This document shows, in pieces, positions 4,564 to 57,118 of a stretch of 64,000 nucleotides of DNA. The stretch covers positions 806,001 through 870,000 of the forward strand of contig NZ_FORV01000001.1 of NCBI RefSeq assembly GCF_900114095.1, written 5' to 3'. Source of the DNA: Sphingomonas sp. NFR04. GTDB lineage: Bacteria > Pseudomonadota > Alphaproteobacteria > Sphingomonadales > Sphingomonadaceae. The translations under genes and the position numbers were made by a program. The notes under the pieces are model-generated. The model was not told where the DNA came from, did no database searches, and worked only from the letters and a program-made list of their open reading frames with translations. Each line of letters begins with the position of its first letter. Position 1 is the first letter of the stretch.

Positions 4564-5177
4564 AACGCGCGCCCGAGCCAGGCGACCCGCCCAATCAGCT
4601 GGAAGCGCCCGGCACGCGCGAGCCGCACCGGATAGGCCGGATTGTCGCTCACCAGCTCCACCCCGCCCACCGCGGGCCGCAGTCGCTTGACCAGCAGTTC
4701 ACCCTCCACCCGCAGCACGAAGATGCCGCGCGCATCGATCCGGCAGCGATCGCGGTCGACCAGGATCTCGTCGCCGTCGTTCAGCGTCGGCGCCATCGAA
4801 TCGCCCGCGACGCGCACCATCGATGCCGCCTCGGGGCGAACGCCAAGCTGGCGCAGCAGCAGCGGCGGGAAGGCAAAGGGAGCCTGCAAGGTTTCCTCCT
4901 CCGCCCAGCCGCCCGGCCCCGCCGACGCGCCCAGGTCGATCCGCGGCACCTTCACCAGCTCCGCCTGCGGACGGCCGCCCAGCAGCGTCTCGTCGACGCC
5001 CAGATATTCGGCCAGCCGCGCGCGGTCGCGCTCGGGCAATTCGCGCGGCGAACCGCGCATCAGATATTGCTGCAGATAGGCCGGGTTGCGCCCCAGCACG
5101 CGCGACAGGGTGGCAAGGCGAACCCCTTTCGCGGCCACCAGCTTCGCAAAATTTGCCCTTTGTACATCGGCTTCCAT
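4560..5177 (-). CDS. LexA-like S24 repressor/peptidase with HTH domain
   Basis: 205 residues from the ATG at 5177, which has AAAGGGGGT just upstream; an in-frame start 36 bp earlier is less likely. The N-terminal half (residues 5-60) is a helix-turn-helix with AYLQQYLMRGSPRELPERDR. The C-terminal half is an S24 (LexA/CI/UmuD) domain with nucleophile Ser127 in VAGDSMAPTLNDGD and general base Lys164 in GELLVKRL. Such proteins are cytoplasmic repressors that may self-cleave with RecA, though no clear Ala-Gly cleavage site before Ser127 is evident. There is no prophage nearby, so it looks like a resident sphingomonad regulator. It is co-transcribed with the methyltransferase. Confidence 0.85.
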   Translation of the reverse strand: MEADVQRANFAKLVAAKGVRLATLSRVLGRNPAYLQQYLMRGSPRELPERDRARLAEYLGVDETLLGGRPQAELVKVPRIDLGASAGPGGWAEEETLQAPFAFPPLLLRQLGVRPEAASMVRVAGDSMAPTLNDGDEILVDRDRCRIDARGIFVLRVEGELLVKRLRPAVGGVELVSDNPAYPVRLARAGRFQLIGRVAWLGRAL

Positions 5178-13190: not shown

Positions 13191-13213
13191 GGGGCCGCCC
13201 CTGCGCTATCCGC

Positions 13214-13310
13214 CGTCATCCCCGCGAAGGCGGGGATCCATTGGCGCTGAATCGTCGGTTCCAGCCCCCAGCGTCCTGGCAAATGGATTCCCGCCTTTGC
13301 GGGAATGACG
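13214..13310. repeat. 97-bp palindromic repeat, family A, copy 2
   Basis: Same orientation as the copy at 1.7 kb: CGTCATCCCCGCGAAGG at one end, CGGGAATGACG at the other, and a core with GGCGCTGAATCG and GTCCTGGCAAATGGATT. It lies between the mechanosensitive channel and the YkvA-family gene (convergent). Confidence 0.93.
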
Positions 13311-13338
13311 AAGTTGGAGGGATGAGGCGATCAAATCC

Positions 13339-17069: not shown

Positions 17070-17180
17070 AAGCCCCTCCCCTTCAGGGGAGGAGTTTGGG
17101 GTGGGGCACTTTCTAACAGCGAAGGGCTGGCGGATCGCTCATCCCCCACCCCCAACCCCTCCCCTGAAGGGGAGGGGCTA
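17070..17180. repeat. 111-bp palindromic repeat, family B, copy 1
   Basis: Ends AAGCCCCTCCCCTTCAGGGG and CCCCTGAAGGGGAGGGGCT are inverted repeats; each also folds on itself. The inner parts read GTTTGGGGTGGGGC and CCCCACCCCCAACCCC around a unique core. It lies between the thiolase and MaoC genes. A homologous copy lies inside putA. Confidence 0.92.
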
Positions 17181-17740: not shown

Positions 17741-20700
17741 ATGCCGACTGCCGTACCGTCACACCACCGCGAATTGATGGCCAAGCTGCACCGCGCGGCC
17801 GAACCCGATGTTCTAAAACCGCTTCTGGAGCGCGCGCGACTCACGCCCGATTCGCGCGAGCGGGTGATGGATCATGCCCTGGCGGCGCTGGCGGACCTGC
17901 GCGCGGCGCAGACCCGCGGCTGGGTGAACCAGTTCCTCCAGGAATATCGGCTCAACTCGTCCGAGGGCGTCGCGCTGCTCAGCCTCGCCGAGGCTTTCCT
18001 GCGCGTCCCCGATCCCGAGACCGCCGACCTGCTGATCGCCGACAAGCTGGGCGATGCCGACTGGAAGGCGCATTCGGGCAAGTCGAACTCGGTGCTGGTG
18101 AACTCCGCCACCTGGGGCCTGATGCTCGGCCGCGCGCTGGTCGGCGACGAGAAGACCGGGGCGCTCCGCCGGCTGATCTCGCGCGCCGGCGAGCCCTTCG
18201 TCCGCCAGGCGGTGGGCGCGGCGATGAAGCGAATGGGCGAGGTCTTCGTGATGGGTCGCACCATCGACGAGGCGATGAAGCGGATGAAGAAGCCGGAGAA
18301 TAAGGGCTTCACCGCCAGCTTCGACATGCTGGGCGAGGCGGCGCGGACCAAGGCCGATGCCGAACGCTATTTCCAGGCCTATTTCGAGGCGATCCGCGCG
18401 GTCGGCCGCGATCCCAAGGCGGGGCATTCGATCTCGGTGAAGCTCTCCGCGCTCCACCCGCGCTACGAAGTCGCGCAATATGATCGCTGCGTGCCGGAAC
18501 TCACCGACATGCTGGCGCAGCTGGCCTCGGAATCGGCGGCGCAGGGCATCCCGCTCACCGTCGACGCCGAGGAGAGCGAGCGGCTGGAGATGAGCCTCGA
18601 CATCATCGGCTCGGTCGCGCGGCGGCCGGAGCTGAAGGGCTGGAACGGCTTCGGCATGGCGGTGCAGGCCTATGGCAAGCGCGCCCGCGCGGTGATCGGC
18701 TGGGCCGACGATCTCGGCCGCCCGATGCACGTCCGGCTGGTCAAGGGCGCCTATTGGGACAGCGAGATCAAGCGCACCCAGGTGGAAGGCCTGTCCGACT
18801 ATCCGCTGTTCACCCGCAAGGCGGCGACCGACGTCTCCTACCTTGCCTGCGCGCGCGACATGCTTGCGGCGGAAAACATCGTGCCGGCCTTCGCGAGCCA
18901 TAATGCGCTGACCGTCGCCACCATCCTCGACTGGGCCGGCAACAGCCGCGACTTCGAGTTCCAGCGCCTCCACGGCATGGGCGAAGGCCTGTACGAGCGG
19001 CTGGTCAACGAACAAGGCTATCACTGCCGCATCTACGCGCCGGTGGGCGGGCATCGCGACCTGCTGGCCTATCTCGTCCGCCGCCTGCTCGAGAATGGCG
19101 CGAACTCCAGCTTCGTCCACCAGCTTGCCGACGAGCAGCTGAGCGAAGCGGAACTGCTCGCCGATCCGGTGGAGAAGATCGCGGCGGTGGGCGGCACGCG
19201 GCACCCGAGCATTCCGTTGCCGGTGGAATTGTTTGGTGCGTGGAAGAATTCGGGCGGGATCGATCTCGCCGAGCGGACGGTGCTGGCGGATACCGCGATG
19301 GCCATCCAGCAAAAGCCCCTCCCCTTCAGGGGAGGGGTTGGGGTGGGGCCTGTAGCCTCAAGCGAAGGACTCGCTCCCAGCTCAGCCCCCACCCCCAACT
19401 CCTCCCCTGAAGGGGAGGGGCTTGTACGTGGTGCCATCGACCGCGCAACCGCCGCCTTCCCCGGCTGGTCCGCCACCCCGCTCGCCACCCGCGCCGCGAT
19501 CCTCGAGCGCCTTGCCGACCTGCTCGAGGAGAACCGCATCGAGCTGATGGCGCTGGCCGTGAAGGAGGCCTTCAAGACCCTCCCCGACGCGCTCGGCGAA
19601 GTCCGCGAAGTTGCCGATTTCTGCCGCTACTACGCCCTCCAGGCCCGCACCGGCCTCGCCCCGATCACCCTTCCCGGGCCGACGGGCGAGCGCAACGAAC
19701 TGCGCATGGAAGGTCGCGGCGTCTGGGCGACGATCGCGCCGTGGAACTTCCCGCTGGCGATCTTCCTCGGCCAGACCGCGGCGGCGCTCGTCGCGGGCAA
19801 CGCCGTGGTCGCCAAGCCCGCGCCGCAGACGCCGGAGATCGCCCGCGCCGCCGTGCGCCTCGCGCATCAGGCGGGCGTGCCGGAGGACGCGCTGGTGCTG
19901 GTGACCGGCGGGCCGGAAGTAGGCGCCGCGCTCACGTCCGATCCGCGCATCGCCGGCGTGGCGTTCACCGGCTCGACGCCGACCGCCAAGAAGATCGCTG
20001 CGTCGCTGCTCGAAGGCGAGGATCGCCCGCTGGTGCCGCTGATTGCGGAGACCGGCGGCATCAACGCGATGGTCGTCGATTCCACCGCGCTGCCCGAACA
20101 GGTGGTGGCCGACGTGCTCACCTCGGCCTTCCGCTCGGCGGGGCAGCGCTGCTCGGCGCTGCGCCTGCTGCTGCTGCAGGAGGAGATCGCCGAGGGCGTG
20201 ATCGAGATGCTGCGCGGCGCGATGGAATTGCTGATCCTCGGCGACCCCGCCGATCCGCGCACCGATATCGGCCCGGTGATCGACCAGGCGGCCTATGACA
20301 AGCTGATGGCCTATCGCGACAGCGCCAAGGCCCAGTGGATCAAGACCGTGCCGGTGCCTGCCACCGGGCTGTTCGTGCCGCCGACGATGATCCGCATCGA
20401 CCGCCCGGAAGACCTGACCCGCGAATGGTTCGGCCCGATCCTCCACGTCGCCACCTGGAAGGCGGGCACGCTGGGCGAGACGGTGGCACGGGTGAACGCC
20501 AAGGGCTTCGGCCTTACCATGGGCCTGCACAGCCGCATCGCGCGCTCGGCCGAGCTGGTTGAGGCGGAGGCGCGCGTCGGCAACCTGTACATCAACCGCT
20601 CGATGATCGGCGCGGTAGTAGGCTCGCAGCCCTTTGGCGGCGAGGGCCTATCGGGCACCGGCCCCAAGGCGGGCGGCCCGCACTATCTGCACCGCTTCTG

Positions 20701-20782: not shown

Positions 20783-20839
20783 GGCCGCCGATCCCATCCT
20801 CCCTCGTGGGGGGATGGGGCAGACCGCCCACACATCAAC

Positions 20840-20936
20840 CGTCATTCCCGCGAAGGCGGGAATCCATTTGCCAGGACGTTCGGGGAAAGAACCGCGGCTT
20901 CAGCGCCAATAGATCCCCGCCTTCGCGGGGATGACG
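20840..20936. repeat. 97-bp palindromic repeat, family A, copy 3 (reverse orientation)
   Basis: The ends match the other copies, but the core reads CATTTGCCAGGACG then GCTTCAGCGCCAAT, the reverse complement of the core at 1.7, 13.2 and 29.1 kb. It lies between the convergent putA and phaZ genes. Confidence 0.93.
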
Positions 20937-20959
20937 GTGTATTTTCTGGGTAGCTACGG

Positions 20960-27771: not shown

Positions 27772-27879
27772 CGAAACGGGGGTTCCAGCAGATGTGGGGG
27801 GGGGGCGTGTTCGTCCCTTAGCGTGGTGGGACGGCGCAGCAAACCTGGGATCGCGTGCCAGCCGTACCACAAAATCCAT

Positions 27880-27976
27880 CGTCATTCCCGCGAAGGCGGG
27901 AATCCATTTGCCAGGACGCTTTGGAATAGAACCGCGGGTTCAGCGGCAATGGATCCCCGCCTTCGCGGGGATGACG
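27880..27976. repeat. 97-bp palindromic repeat, family A, copy 4 (reverse orientation)
   Basis: CGTCATTCCCGCGAAGGCGG opens it and CCTTCGCGGGGATGACG closes it; the core CATTTGCCAGGACG then GGGTTCAGCGGCAATGG matches the 20.8-kb copy. It lies between the FAD oxidoreductase start and the ohrR end. Confidence 0.93.
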
Positions 27977-28004
27977 GTGTAGGGTGCGAAGGGACTGGAG
28001 GCCC

Positions 28005-29003: not shown

Positions 29004-29060
29004 AGGCGGGCAGCCCCTCCCCCTCCGGGGAGAGGGGCATCCCCCACAGCACTATATCCT

Positions 29061-29155
29061 GTCATTCCCGCGAAGGCGGGAATCCATTGGCGCTGATGGC
29101 GCGGTTCTACCCGCAACATCCTGGCAAATGGATTCTCGCCTTCGCGGGAATGACG
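29061..29155. repeat. 97-bp palindromic repeat, family A, copy 5
   Basis: GTCATTCCCGCGAAGGCGGG opens it and CCTTCGCGGGAATGACG closes it, with the core in the same orientation as the 1.7 and 13.2 kb copies (TTGGCGCTGATGGCGC, CATCCTGGCAAATGG). It is preceded at 29.01-29.04 kb by a short CCCCTCC..GGAGAGGGG hairpin after ohr. Confidence 0.92.
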
Positions 29156-29184
29156 ATTCCTTCAGGGAAGCGGGCCGTACCTCT

Positions 29185-36609: not shown

Positions 36610-36722
36610 AAGCCCCTCCCCTTCAGGGGAGGGGAGGGGGTGGGGCAGTGTCTCGCAGAGACCAACCTCTGTTCTGGAATCCCTCCACCCCCCAACCCCT
36701 CCTCCAAGGAGGAGGGGCTAAG
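36610..36722. repeat. Palindromic repeat, family B, copy 3
   Basis: AAGCCCCTCCCCTTCAGGGG opens it and CCTCCAAGGAGGAGGGGCTA closes it. The core GGGGCAGTGTCTCGCAGAG and TTCTGGAATCCCTCCA is shared with the 44.4-kb copy but not with those at 17.1 and 19.3 kb, so two subfamilies exist. It lies between cmk and rpsA. Confidence 0.92.
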
Positions 36723-41379: not shown

Positions 41380-41567
41380 GCGTCTTCTCCGGGCGTCGTG
41401 CGACACGCGGCGGAGTCCTGCCGTTCGCGAACGGCCGGCACGCCTCGGGCGCAGACGCCGGGGAGCGCCACGAGACGAACCGATGCGGCCTCCACCGCTC
41501 GTTCGTCGCTCAGACGGAGAACCGTGCCACGGCCATCCCCTGGGCCAGGGCAAGAGCGACCTCTCGC
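41380..41567 (-). other. Leader between riboswitch and receptor start
   Basis: About 185 bases with no gene. It contains the palindrome GCCGTTCGCGAACGGC (41420-41435) and other GC-rich stems close to the receptor start that may form the expression platform, hiding or freeing the TTG ribosome-binding site. Confidence 0.5.
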
Positions 41568-41752
41568 TGGCAGGTCTCCTGGCTTACGGGTCGTCGCTCG
41601 ATGCACGCCTTCCCAGGCTCGGGGCCCAGTGGCTGCTTCCGTAAAAGGAAGCCCGCGCATCTCGCTCGCCGCTTACAGTTGCAGGGACAGCCTCGGCTTC
41701 GGGCGCAAGCGCCCATACCGCGTTCCCTTTTAAGCCCCTCTCAGGGCACCAG
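41568..41752 (-). ncRNA. Cobalamin (adenosylcobalamin-type) riboswitch
   Basis: Read on the minus strand, the landmarks occur in the correct order: TTAAAAGGGAACGCGGT, GAGGCTGTCCCTGCAACTGT then AAGCGGCGAG, GCCACTGG, CCTGGGAAGGCG, and the B12-box region GACGACCCGTAAGCCAGG followed by AGACCTGCC. This is the full class I cobalamin core. Binding of the cofactor should switch off the TonB receptor gene downstream. Confidence 0.95.
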
Positions 41753-41840
41753 CGCGATCATGGTTCGGCTGCGGACGAAGTCCGTAGCCGAATGTGCGCC
41801 GGGTAGTCCGCGAACGCCAGCCTGGCAAGCGGGAGGCGCG

Positions 41841-43915: not shown

Positions 43916-44335
43916 ATGGCACGGGCAACGAGATTGAATGAGGGTTTCGCACAGCGGCTGCCGATCGGCACCGATGCCGTGGCGGTGCGCCAGCGGATCG
44001 AGGCGATGGAGCATCTGCTGGAAGGCCTGGTGACCATTCCGGGGACCCGCCGCAAGCTGGGGCTGGACGTGCTGCTCGACTTCGTGCCGGCGGTGGGCCC
44101 CAGCGTGGCGGCGGCGATGGGTGCCTATCTGGCCTGGGAAGCGCGCAATCTGGGCATGCCCAAGCGCACGATCGCGCGAATGGCGGGCAATATCGGCGTC
44201 GACTGGGCGCTGGGGATGATCCCGTTCGTCGGCGCGGTGCCCGACTTCTTCTTCCGCTCGAACACCCGCAACGTGCGGCTGATCAAGCGCTATCTGGACA
44301 AGCACCATCCCGCGAGCGTGGTGATCGAGGGCTAG
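43916..44335 (+). CDS. DUF4112 protein
   Basis: 139 residues. RIEAMEHLLEGLVTIPGTRRKLGLDVLLDFVPAVGPSVAAAMGAYLAWEARNLGMPKRTIARMAGNIGVDWALGMIPFVGAVPDFFFRSNTRN is the DUF4112 signature, shown here for identification only by its key parts: LDFVPAVGP, NIGVDWALG and PDFFFRSN. Two short membrane segments are predicted. The function is unknown. It sits 9 bp after the solute-binding lipoprotein gene, so the two are probably co-transcribed. Confidence 0.85.
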   Translation: MARATRLNEGFAQRLPIGTDAVAVRQRIEAMEHLLEGLVTIPGTRRKLGLDVLLDFVPAVGPSVAAAMGAYLAWEARNLGMPKRTIARMAGNIGVDWALGMIPFVGAVPDFFFRSNTRNVRLIKRYLDKHHPASVVIEG

Positions 44336-44347
44336 TTCTACCTATTC

Positions 44348-44518
44348 TAGCCCCTTTCCTTCAGGCGCATCAGGTCAGCGCTGCCCCCGGCAGCGCCTGA
44401 ACAGCGCGAGGCGCTGTTCACCTGATGCGGGGTTGGGGTGGGGCAGTGTCTCGCAGAGACCGACCGACGTTCTGGAATCCCTCCATCCCCTACCCCTCCT
44501 CCAAGGAGGAGGGGCTTA
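44348..44518. repeat. Palindromic repeat, family B, copy 4, carrying a nested palindrome
   Basis: It begins AGCCCCTTTCCTTCAG and continues, after a 65-bp interruption, with GGGTTGGGGTGGGGCAGTG through TCTGGAATCCCTCCATCC to CTCCAAGGAGGAGGGGCTT. Apart from the interruption it matches the 36.6-kb copy closely. It lies between the DUF4112 and RNase T2 genes (convergent). Confidence 0.9.
44365..44429. repeat. 65-bp palindrome nested inside family B copy 4
   Basis: The termini CGCATCAGGT and ACCTGATGCG are perfect 10-bp inverted repeats. Inside are GCGCTG.CCCCCGG.CAGCGC and AACAGCGCGAGGCGCTGTT stems. It splits the TTCAG/GGGG junction that is continuous in the three other copies. Confidence 0.85.
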
Positions 44519-44529
44519 GACGTTTTGCC

Positions 44530-45240
44530 TTACCGCCCGCGCCAGATCTTCAGCGCCGCATCGTCCGCAGCCCCGCCGGTCCCGGCCTCACAGCGATCGT
44601 AGCGGAAGCGGGTGTCGAGGCAGAGCCACAGCTCGTCGAGCCAGCCCTCCCGGGTCGTCGTCACCCGAATCGCGCTCGCCGGGATCGCGCGGTTCTTCGC
44701 GGCGAAGGCCTGCTTGAAGTCGCCCACGGTAACGGCGCCGCGCGATAGCGCCTCCATGTCGGGATAGCGGATCGCCCGGTACAGGCTGGTGGAGCGCTGG
44801 AAATAGGCCTCGGGCGTCGTCTGCATGCAGGTGCCGTGTTTGGCCCATTCGTGCTGGATCAGCTGCTCGGAAGGCGTGGCGCACATCGTCTTGCGGATCA
44901 AGGCGGGCGGCAGGATCGGGGTGGCCTTGCAATATTGCGGCCACAGCTTGCCACGTCCGTCGGGCCACAGCCCGTGTAGCGTGAAGCCGAAGTGGTTGTT
45001 GCCGCCACACTGGAAGGCCTTGCCGGGCTCGTCGCCATGCGCGCGGCAGAAGCCCGGCGCCCAGGTCAGCGCCAGCGTGTAGCTGCCGATCGGCAGGATG
45101 CGCTGCGGCTCCTTGGCGCTGGGCAGGTCGGGCAGCGGCCGCTCGACCTTGCTCGGCGCCATGCACATCTGCGCCTGTGCCAGCGCCGCTCCCGGCAACA
45201 GCGCCGCGAGGCCGACCACGCTTCCCAATACCGCCTTCAT
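44530..45240 (-). CDS. Secreted ribonuclease T2 family protein
   Basis: 236 residues. A signal peptide (GSVVGLAALLPGAALAQA) precedes the mature enzyme. Catalytic segment CAS1 is FGFTLHGLWPDG and CAS2 is HEWAKHGTC, so both active histidines and the Glu/Lys are present; several cysteines suit a disulphide-bonded periplasmic enzyme. It cleaves RNA through 2',3'-cyclic phosphates. The ATG at 45240 has GGGAG six bases upstream. It lies 11 bp after nadC on the same strand, so the two share a transcript. Confidence 0.93.
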   Translation of the reverse strand: MKAVLGSVVGLAALLPGAALAQAQMCMAPSKVERPLPDLPSAKEPQRILPIGSYTLALTWAPGFCRAHGDEPGKAFQCGGNNHFGFTLHGLWPDGRGKLWPQYCKATPILPPALIRKTMCATPSEQLIQHEWAKHGTCMQTTPEAYFQRSTSLYRAIRYPDMEALSRGAVTVGDFKQAFAAKNRAIPASAIRVTTTREGWLDELWLCLDTRFRYDRCEAGTGGAADDAALKIWRGR

Positions 45241-56749: not shown

Positions 56750-56902
56750 GTGACTGACGCGATCGAGATCGTTTTGCGGTTGTTTTGGGAGGGCGGCGTA
56801 GAGTTTGCCTACCATCGCTGGGGCTGGCCCGGCGCAATCGCAGCCATTCTCGCGCCGATCGCGATCGTCGTGGGGATGATCGCGATTTTCCGACACAGCT
56901 AA
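56750..56902 (+). CDS. Possible small single-pass membrane protein
   Basis: 50 residues from the GTG at 56750: a start TDAIEIVLRLFWEGGVEFAY, then HRWGWPG and a hydrophobic helix AIAAILAPIAIVVGMIAIF ending in RHS. The helix and the flanking charges look like a real small membrane protein. There is no clear Shine-Dalgarno (GCGGCTGAACGTTC lies upstream), so confidence is moderate. It sits between the preceding hypothetical gene and a palindromic repeat. Confidence 0.5.
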   Translation: MTDAIEIVLRLFWEGGVEFAYHRWGWPGAIAAILAPIAIVVGMIAIFRHS

Positions 56903-57028
56903 TCCTCCCCCGCCAGGGGGAGGTGGCGCGCGCAGCGCGACGGAGGGGGAGGACGCCAGAACCTCGCCTCTCGTGCTTCCTCCCCCTCCGTCAGGCTGCG
57001 CCTGACACCTCCCCCTGGCGGGGGAGGA
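56903..57028. repeat. GC-rich palindromic element, family C, second copy
   Basis: The ends TCCTCCCCCGCCAGGGGGAGG and CCTCCCCCTGGCGGGGGAGGA are inverted repeats. Inner CGCGCGCAGCGCGACGGAGG faces CCTCCGTCAGGCTGCGCCTG. It is related in layout to the element at 24.2 kb and lies between the small membrane gene and the zeta-inhibitor gene. Confidence 0.88.
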
Positions 57029-57118
57029 TCGATTGGGAGGCGCCATCCGGAACCACCCCCGTTGCCAGCGCGGCCCCTCCCTCCTATCTCGGTCCCGAGT
57101 TTAGGTAAGGGGCATATG

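Follow-up and report, generated by a model that had tools for sequence, protein, structure and literature searches.

A 64-bp Y-shaped DNA cassette that replaces four to five base pairs of REPIN-like repeats in Sphingomonas, and the DUF559 genes that such repeats bracket

Introduction

A short unit of DNA without a gene of its own, here termed the Y cassette, lies within a larger GC-rich repeat (the host) in Sphingomonas sp. NFR04, and comparison with cassette-free sites shows that it is acquired by replacement of CTCC/GGAG in the host rather than by plain insertion. The copy from which we started is a 64-bp unit at 44366–44429 of the window, by which we mean the whole 64 000-nucleotide stretch that was analysed. 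Related cassettes occur throughout the genus, their base pairing is maintained in DNA, and palindromes of the host type bracket genes of the DUF559 family.

Palindromes inside palindromes are already known (PMC2670323, PMC4478555, PMC3733652 and PMC1525189, each consulted in part). As in the REP/REPIN–RAYT systems (compare PMC3116915 and PMC2817692), the repeats reported here form inverted palindrome pairs, bracket a mobility-type gene and have gene-less derivatives in tens of copies. Unlike in those systems, the bracketed gene is the endonuclease-like DUF559; the Y1 transposase that takes this role elsewhere is missing from 9/9 close genomes. The host also resembles the intrastrand triplex motif TM_ECO (Holder et al., 2015; PMC4666352, in part) in its succession of C-rich stem, loop, purine stem, short loop and second purine stem. 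By sequence alone, the host form CCCTCTCCC-GCTTGC-GGGAGAGGG-TT-GGGTGAGGG nearly fits the published CCCTCNCCC-N3-6-GGGNGAGGG-N3-GGGNGAGGG. There are distinguishable differences from TM_ECO as given in that part of the source: the host contains an inserted cassette, its second loop is mostly 2 nt long and its motifs occur in inverted pairs.

Three further groups of elements bear comparison. The CGTC-tagged REPs of alphaproteobacteria (PMC3733652, in part) are likewise palindromes without a known dedicated transposase, and some of their dimers are located inside other palindromes, but their sequence is unrelated to that of the Y cassette or its host; the same part of that source calls the spread of such RAYT-less repeats an open question. 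Yeast mitochondrial GC clusters (PMC4478555, in part) and Volvox organelle palindromes (PMC2670323, in part) are short palindromes that merge or nest. The flanking bases of the GC42 cluster vary with its presence or absence, which has been read as co-conversion, and the nested palindromes of Volvox occur in both orientations, as the Y cassette does. In contrast to the Y cassette, these elements are organellar and unrelated in sequence, and the parts of the accounts consulted describe no fixed 4-bp replacement within one host architecture. Finally, REP-targeting insertion sequences (PMC1525189, in part) are mobile DNA inside palindromic repeats; unlike the Y cassette, which has neither gene nor duplication, they are coding and have direct repeats. 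We found no description of the Y cassette or of Sphingomonas REPINs in the open-licence literature.

Results and discussion

The Y cassette and its host in the window

The sequence-only reading of this DNA had described a 65-bp sequence with perfect 10-bp inverted termini. Both arms, CGCATCAGGT (44366–44375) and ACCTGATGCG (44420–44429), are indeed exact, and the unit measures 64 bp. Folded as single-stranded DNA, it forms a three-way junction in which these arms, as the outer stem, enclose two hairpins with 3-nt loops. Inner hairpin 1 (44377–44397) has the loop CCC (44386–44388) and inner hairpin 2 (44399–44419) the loop GAG (44408–44410), both hairpins being drawn from fold and covariation and lying, like the arms, on the plus strand. 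Sequence, fold and copy alignment assign the window copy to subtype A, with GAG in the second loop where the family has GGG. The folding energy is −30.5 kcal/mol compared with −12.95 ± 2.04 kcal/mol in 200 shuffles, none of which equals it (z = −8.6), whereas the terminal 10-mer by itself is near chance (nine matches at no more than one mismatch, 7.0 expected). The above-chance feature of the Y cassette is its structure, rather than the terminal 10-mer. In its terminal inverted repeats, its shortness and the absence of a gene of its own, the cassette resembles a miniature inverted-repeat transposable element (MITE).

The host (44348–44518, plus strand) is a composite repeat in which GC-rich palindromes form an inverted, REPIN-like pair. 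It lies between convergent genes, of which that for a DUF4112 protein ends at 44335 and that for a ribonuclease T2 homologue at 44530. The composite has the two inverted REPs around a spacer that characterize a REPIN, whereas no RAYT gene accompanies it in the genome. Along the plus strand it consists of a degenerate C-rich stem CCCCTTTCC (44351–44359, from sequence and triplex frame), the bases GG that remain of the first purine stem on its left side (44364–44365), the cassette in place of the middle GGAG of that stem, the right remnant GGG (44430–44432), the second purine stem GGGGTGGGG (44435–44443, triplex frame) and, at the host centre, a hypervariable tetranucleotide that reads CGAC here (44465–44468). 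The triplex frame also picks out three uninterrupted motifs of the host type in the window: CCCCTCCCCTTCAGGGGAGGGGTTGGGGTGGGG at 19316–19348 (plus strand), one at 17143–17177 (minus strand) and a variant at 36613–36645 (plus strand), with which the window copy had previously been compared.

Cassette-free members of the host family read TTCAGG-GGAG-GGGTTGGGG, the window reads TTCAGG-(64 bp)-GGGTTGGGG, and the 36.6-kb copy is a variant of the cassette-free form, TTCAGG-GGAG-GGGAGGGGGTGGGG. The continuity with the 36.6-kb copy that had been claimed for the host holds to the right of the cassette, where the two are 86–87% identical; to the left, the 17 bases AGCCCCTTTCCTTCAGG differ from that copy at two places. 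The break point that had been placed at a TTCAG/GGGG hairpin tip needs one correction: the flanks do not rejoin cleanly, four bases being missing relative to the cassette-free members.

Other elements of the window may be recorded here. A second repeat family has CGTCATTCCCGCGAAGGCGGGAATCC cores in inverted pairs at 1660–1777, 13195–13315, 20834–20941, 27874–27981 and 29041–29156, and looks like the CGTC-tagged REPs in the part of PMC3733652 consulted. A long inverted repeat at 56902–57029 has 55-nt arms, 89% complementary and 18 nt apart, and a cobalamin riboswitch (RF00174, 107.5 bits) lies at 41552–41768 on the minus strand.

Distribution of the Y cassette

The prediction that the element has other copies is borne out. 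Within the NFR04 genome, BLAST finds two close copies (89 and 87% identity), and a covariance model built from 22 copies finds five places, the window copy included. Across the genus, the model matches 213/295 Sphingomonas genomes at E ≤ 0.001, with 17 matches in the top genome, numbers per genome being matches scored by the model. In an order-wide sample, scanned with strict filters that lose weak matches, the cassette occurs in 54/396 genomes, all 54 of them within the same family, and in 9/84 genera; two genomes outside the family (G056 and G060) gave weak partial BLAST matches that are not counted as Y cassettes. The core pattern is present in at least 120 stretches, mostly from Sphingomonas but also from Sphingobium, Sphingosinicella, Allosphingosinicella, Sphingopyxis and one entry labelled Bacillus, and 80 of 120 such stretches (all but L228–L267) were covered by the covariance-model scan.

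We gathered 136 distinct copies, 135 of them with both flanks. The 64-bp core is present in 123/135; many host families carry the cassette, and both orientations occur. One divergent copy of 65 nt (L047) has no recognised host and stands outside the 135-copy set.

Architecture of the hosts

The usual host runs from a C-rich arm through a loop into two G-rich arms in succession, and the same base, G in host orientation, stands on both sides of the cassette in 132/135 copies. When the 4 nt in the middle of stem two, which the cassette replaces, are treated as open, 51/135 hosts fit the 9+9+9 triplex frame perfectly, 79/135 within two mismatches and 118/135 within five; at 5000 random positions in the same loci, the corresponding numbers were 0, 5 and 41. 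A C-rich stem and two purine stems of matching length are thus found, and the host architecture, as judged from these motifs, is of the putative G/C-rich intrastrand-triplex type. Among the 17/135 copies outside the frame at five mismatches are some whose host has a long second loop, as well as four (L152, L160, L162 and L187) that adjoin a different kind of palindrome. A regular expression for C-rich and G-rich arms within 45 nt matched 98/135 copies compared with 84/20000 controls. The duplex energy between one flank and the other fell below the 5% quantile of the controls in 11/135 copies, and this weak separation argues against one long stem around every copy.

The host centre has the form CAAC-NNNN-GTTC, with 16 distinct tetranucleotides in 21 copies of the NFR04 genome and an entropy of 1.47–1.66 bits per position compared with at most 0.55 beside it; the tetranucleotide is common to some orthologous loci and changed at others. 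At two intergenic sites (L299/L315 and L272/L290), two species each carry the host in opposite orientations at the same place, which shows turnover.

Cassette subtypes track host class: in the close group, the nearest relative belongs to the same class in 38.3/42 cases, ties being shared. This fits spread together with the host or exchange inside a host family.

Replacement of 4–5 bp

Among the DNA fetched, exact cassette-free counterparts exist for 57/132 filled junctions. In the 121 distinct counterparts the length at the place of the cassette is 4 bp in 94, 5 bp in 23, 3 bp in two, and 7 and 9 bp in one each, and is never zero; the bases are GGAG in 84 and AGAG in seven of the 121, counts that span about 11 host contexts and are non-independent, many coming from one family. 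In purine stems like GG-GGAG-GGG, the cassette occupies the place of the middle four bases. When the counterparts were checked for overlap between the two flanks, none of the 121 showed a duplication at the junctions. Insertion with target duplication, as expected of a MITE, was therefore rejected, 3–9 bp being replaced in 121/121 counterparts. Six copies of the form GGGAGGG-Y-GGGAGGGG have flanks that share seven bases and so resemble a 7-bp duplication. At two junctions, which account for three of the six, the counterparts hold 5 bp in between; since the right test sequence enters unique DNA, a duplication may still be present in these six.

A classical MITE that inserted once into the host would account for the inverted termini, the nesting and the existence of empty sites, but the loss of 4–5 bp without duplication and the strong host bias speak against it. 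We consider this reading barely credible, and in its simple form it is refuted by the empty sites. The uniformity of the exchange could instead suggest a dedicated recombinase other than DUF559, specific for the Y structure, that would put the cassette in either orientation in place of about 4 bp of the first purine stem; the same replacement in about 11 host contexts, the 64-bp core in 123/135 copies and the two orientations would all suit such an enzyme. No candidate was found, however, in a transposase search that covered PF01797 (0/9 close genomes, 33/295 of the genus), and we regard this explanation as improbable.

Orthologous filled and empty sites

Orthologous pairs of filled and empty sites, a comparison that the sequence-only reading had called for, were obtained at two loci. 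At the first, five species carry the host repeat at the same place and in the same orientation (10/11 genomes aligned, G074 being left out because its left anchor was unmapped). The empty hosts of NFR04 itself (G000), G312 and G164 read CCC-CTCC-CCTGAAGG, whereas G213 has a 64-bp cassette and G002 a decayed 62-bp cassette, each in place of CTCC. These two cassettes are of different subtypes and opposite inner orientation. The tetranucleotide at the host centre is common to G213 and G002, and the three empty hosts carry others; since the centres differ between empty and filled hosts, it is possible that the whole host was replaced at this locus. The other five aligned genomes carry another repeat or none.

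The second locus (L268, 1814–2362; contig C10 of G000) is a GC-rich repeat that lies in frame in a small gene in 11 species and is degenerate in some. In NFR04 the gene encodes 182 amino acids, with the Y cassette read in frame, and a Pfam search of the protein at E 0.01 gave no match. The cassette is confined here to G000 and G213, where it amounts to a net 60 bp or 20 codons. Nine species are without it: G295, G002, G074, G164 and G312 read CCC-CTCC-CGCAAGCGG, G146 retains CTCC but differs at the following base, and the sequences of G303, G023 and G256 are divergent. The frame is open in all 11, with lengths of 158–186 amino acids. The two cassettes differ by a single nucleotide in a region that is 88% identical between G000 and G213; on the 3′ side, identity to G000 is 92% for G295 and G002, both of them empty.

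At the locus of the window, the relatives compared offer no clean empty orthologue. G295 has an uninterrupted host repeat in the opposite orientation; in the remaining eight relatives shown, the site holds a single hairpin, a different repeat or no repeat.

The nesting of one repeat family inside another, as first proposed, is thus supported, two families being involved. Plain insertion is not, as 4–5 bp are replaced and no duplication was detected, and the hoped-for insertion order of the two families does not follow, because the cassette occurs in many hosts and in both orientations and differs in subtype at one orthologous host.

Conservation of base pairs in DNA

In an alignment of 22 gap-free copies (A1, which excludes the 65-nt L047, L058, missed by the boundary regular expression, and the partial matches L048, L049 and L051–L055), 98.0% of pair cells form. 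Double changes occur at 18/28 pairs (72 cells) compared with 8.4 ± 1.5 pairs in shuffles, slid control structures show only two to three such pairs, and one-sided changes are confined to two cells. None of 500 shuffles, which ignore kinship, reaches any of five covariation measures. The loops CCC and GGG occur together in 36/41 distinct copies not chosen by loop pattern, although the model that found those 41 was itself built with CCC/GGG loops; loop conservation is quoted from them because the loop bases were fixed in the pattern-picked copies.

The 118 distinct 66-mers comprise 3304 pair cells: 3216 Watson–Crick, 26 G–T, 32 A–C and 30 other. An RNA is expected to accept G–U more readily than A–C. 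As G–T is no commoner than A–C, the structure is kept in DNA and not in RNA; that is, the Y cassette is maintained at the DNA level. The pattern of a structured RNA, with pairs kept and G–U tolerated, was not found, and no Rfam family matches the cassette at gathering thresholds in the window and five other loci. These results bear directly on whether the unit could be a structured RNA or a 3′-end signal of the flanking genes, as its very stable fold and the position of the window copy between convergent genes might suggest. With G–T at 26 not above A–C at 32, no Rfam match from six sources, copies in both orientations and one copy inside a coding sequence, we judge this very unlikely.

Covariation could also arise through mutation without mobility or selection, if template switching during replication made the cassette and keeps it paired. 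Template switching homogenises inverted arms and inverts spacers (PMC8604942, PMC8794818, in part), and double changes without wobble intermediates are what such homogenisation gives. Spacer inversion would account for the two orientations, and one copy (L176, 4389–4454) has the mirror-image host flanks CTTCAGG-Y-CCTGAAG. Yet template switching by itself cannot explain why unrelated loci in many species carry a cassette of one core, one length and one set of loops, and as a full explanation we hold it to be quite unlikely; it may well act as a helper process.

DUF559 genes between host-type palindromes

Two loci (L286 and L287) have close pairs of cassettes, each pair enclosing a DUF559 gene. 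This family, which its Pfam entry describes as a protein of unknown function, matches the solved 'Endonuclease-Like Protein' 3hrl (E = 1.5e-17) and is present in 273/295 genomes of the genus. At a distance of up to 250 bp, host-type palindromes flank the gene on both sides at 47/84 DUF559 loci, on one side at 16 and on neither at 21. The 84 loci (55 from 11 genomes, namely the 30 best and 25 more, out of 58 rows of which three weak or partial ones were unused, and 29 best of the genus) are non-independent, many bracketed ones being orthologous and the 29 genus-wide ones being the best-scoring. Among control genes, both-side bracketing was found at 0/38 loci, comprising 27 DUF4112 genes (one bracketed on one side, 26 on neither) and 11 Y1 transposase genes (all on neither), with L069 and L086 (DUF4112) and L382 (Y1), cut by contig ends, left uncounted. 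Of 10 000 random positions, none had palindromes on both sides, 209 on one and 9791 on neither. Under a stricter motif with a single orientation per side, 26 pairs around DUF559 face inwards and three are parallel. A gene bracketed by repeats, as in a REPtron, is thereby found for DUF559.

Two of the seven DUF559 genes of the NFR04 genome are bracketed on both sides (L413 at G000:C13:272418 and L422 at G000:C9:1188080), one on one side and four on neither. At L422, the gene lies between two inverted copies of the window's host palindrome CCCCTCCCCTTCAGGGGAGGGGTTGGGGTGGGG, and its reading frame extends into the flanking palindrome. The palindromes around DUF559 genes resemble the REPs around RAYT genes.

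A Y cassette lies within 135 bp of the DUF559 gene at 7/84 loci, namely L401 and L447 (both sides), L404, L411 and L414 (orthologous), L456 and L463, compared with none of 29 DUF4112 loci. The cassettes at L401 and L447 sit inside host palindromes, which bracket DUF559 without cassettes too. As to the transposase with matching termini for which a search had been advised, we identified no element that combines a gene with the ends of the 64-bp unit itself, and Y1/RAYT transposases (PF01797) are absent from 9/9 close genomes and present in 33/295 of the genus, but DUF559 is bracketed by host-type palindromes at 47/84 loci, two of them with a cassette on both sides.

Cassettes are present in 4/20 listed DUF559-less genomes compared with 209/275 others (Fisher, 7e-7, kinship ignored; two unlisted DUF559-less genomes are counted among the 275). 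This correlation may simply follow phylogeny or genome size. G280 has six cassettes and no DUF559 match, and DUF559 is therefore not needed for the presence of cassettes; in G023, which has five cassettes, the one DUF559 gene is flanked by a palindrome on just one side.

An alternative is that host repeats exchange through ordinary recombination or by gene conversion, with no part for DUF559, whose genes would merely lie in repeat-rich regions. The arms that hosts have in common, the different subtypes at one orthologous host, the recorded instability of triplex motifs (PMC4666352, in part) and the cassettes in four of the 20 listed DUF559-less genomes are all consistent with it. A repeat-rich context, however, would hardly explain bracketing at 47/84 DUF559 loci against 0/38 controls, and there is little homology between host families. 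On balance we think this account unlikely, although it deserves serious consideration.

Proposed mechanism

The mechanism that we favour is a break triggered by DUF559, the repair of which from another copy would spread both the host and the Y cassette. The host repeat would descend, by loss of the gene, from a small element in which two palindromes face inwards on either side of DUF559. The enzyme, a putative endonuclease, would break host palindromes, and repair from another copy through the common C-rich and G-rich arms would carry the cassette along, in a manner similar to homing. Template switching within the palindrome could invert the cassette and keep its arms complementary, and the cassette would be a passenger without a known function. 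We hold this proposal with confidence and doubt in equal measure because DUF559 activity is something that we infer; to our knowledge, no activity of DUF559 on these repeats has been described. No exchange between an identified donor and recipient was caught among our comparisons, and the association of DUF559 with the repeats does not by itself equal mobilisation. Beside the cassette, host families have only short G runs in common, which offer little homology for repair between families.

A wider proposal, which we advance more tentatively, is that of a second REP mobility system, in which DUF559 genes would spread the inward-facing triplex-type palindromes that bracket them, and the gene-less pairs of these, through Sphingomonas genomes, and the Y cassette would be a parasite of the palindromic ends that homes into the middle of the first purine stem once the enzyme has broken it.

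Conclusion

The filled and empty orthologues present a repeat that is overwritten at a fixed step while the neighbouring genes are unmoved, and the cassette thereby provides a natural marker inside repeats. Its strong covariation without wobble pairs is a caution against labelling every covarying bacterial repeat an RNA. The bracketing by palindromes suggests a testable function for DUF559. If the wider proposal is true, the Y cassette would disable the putative triplex of its host and would occasionally lengthen a protein in frame.
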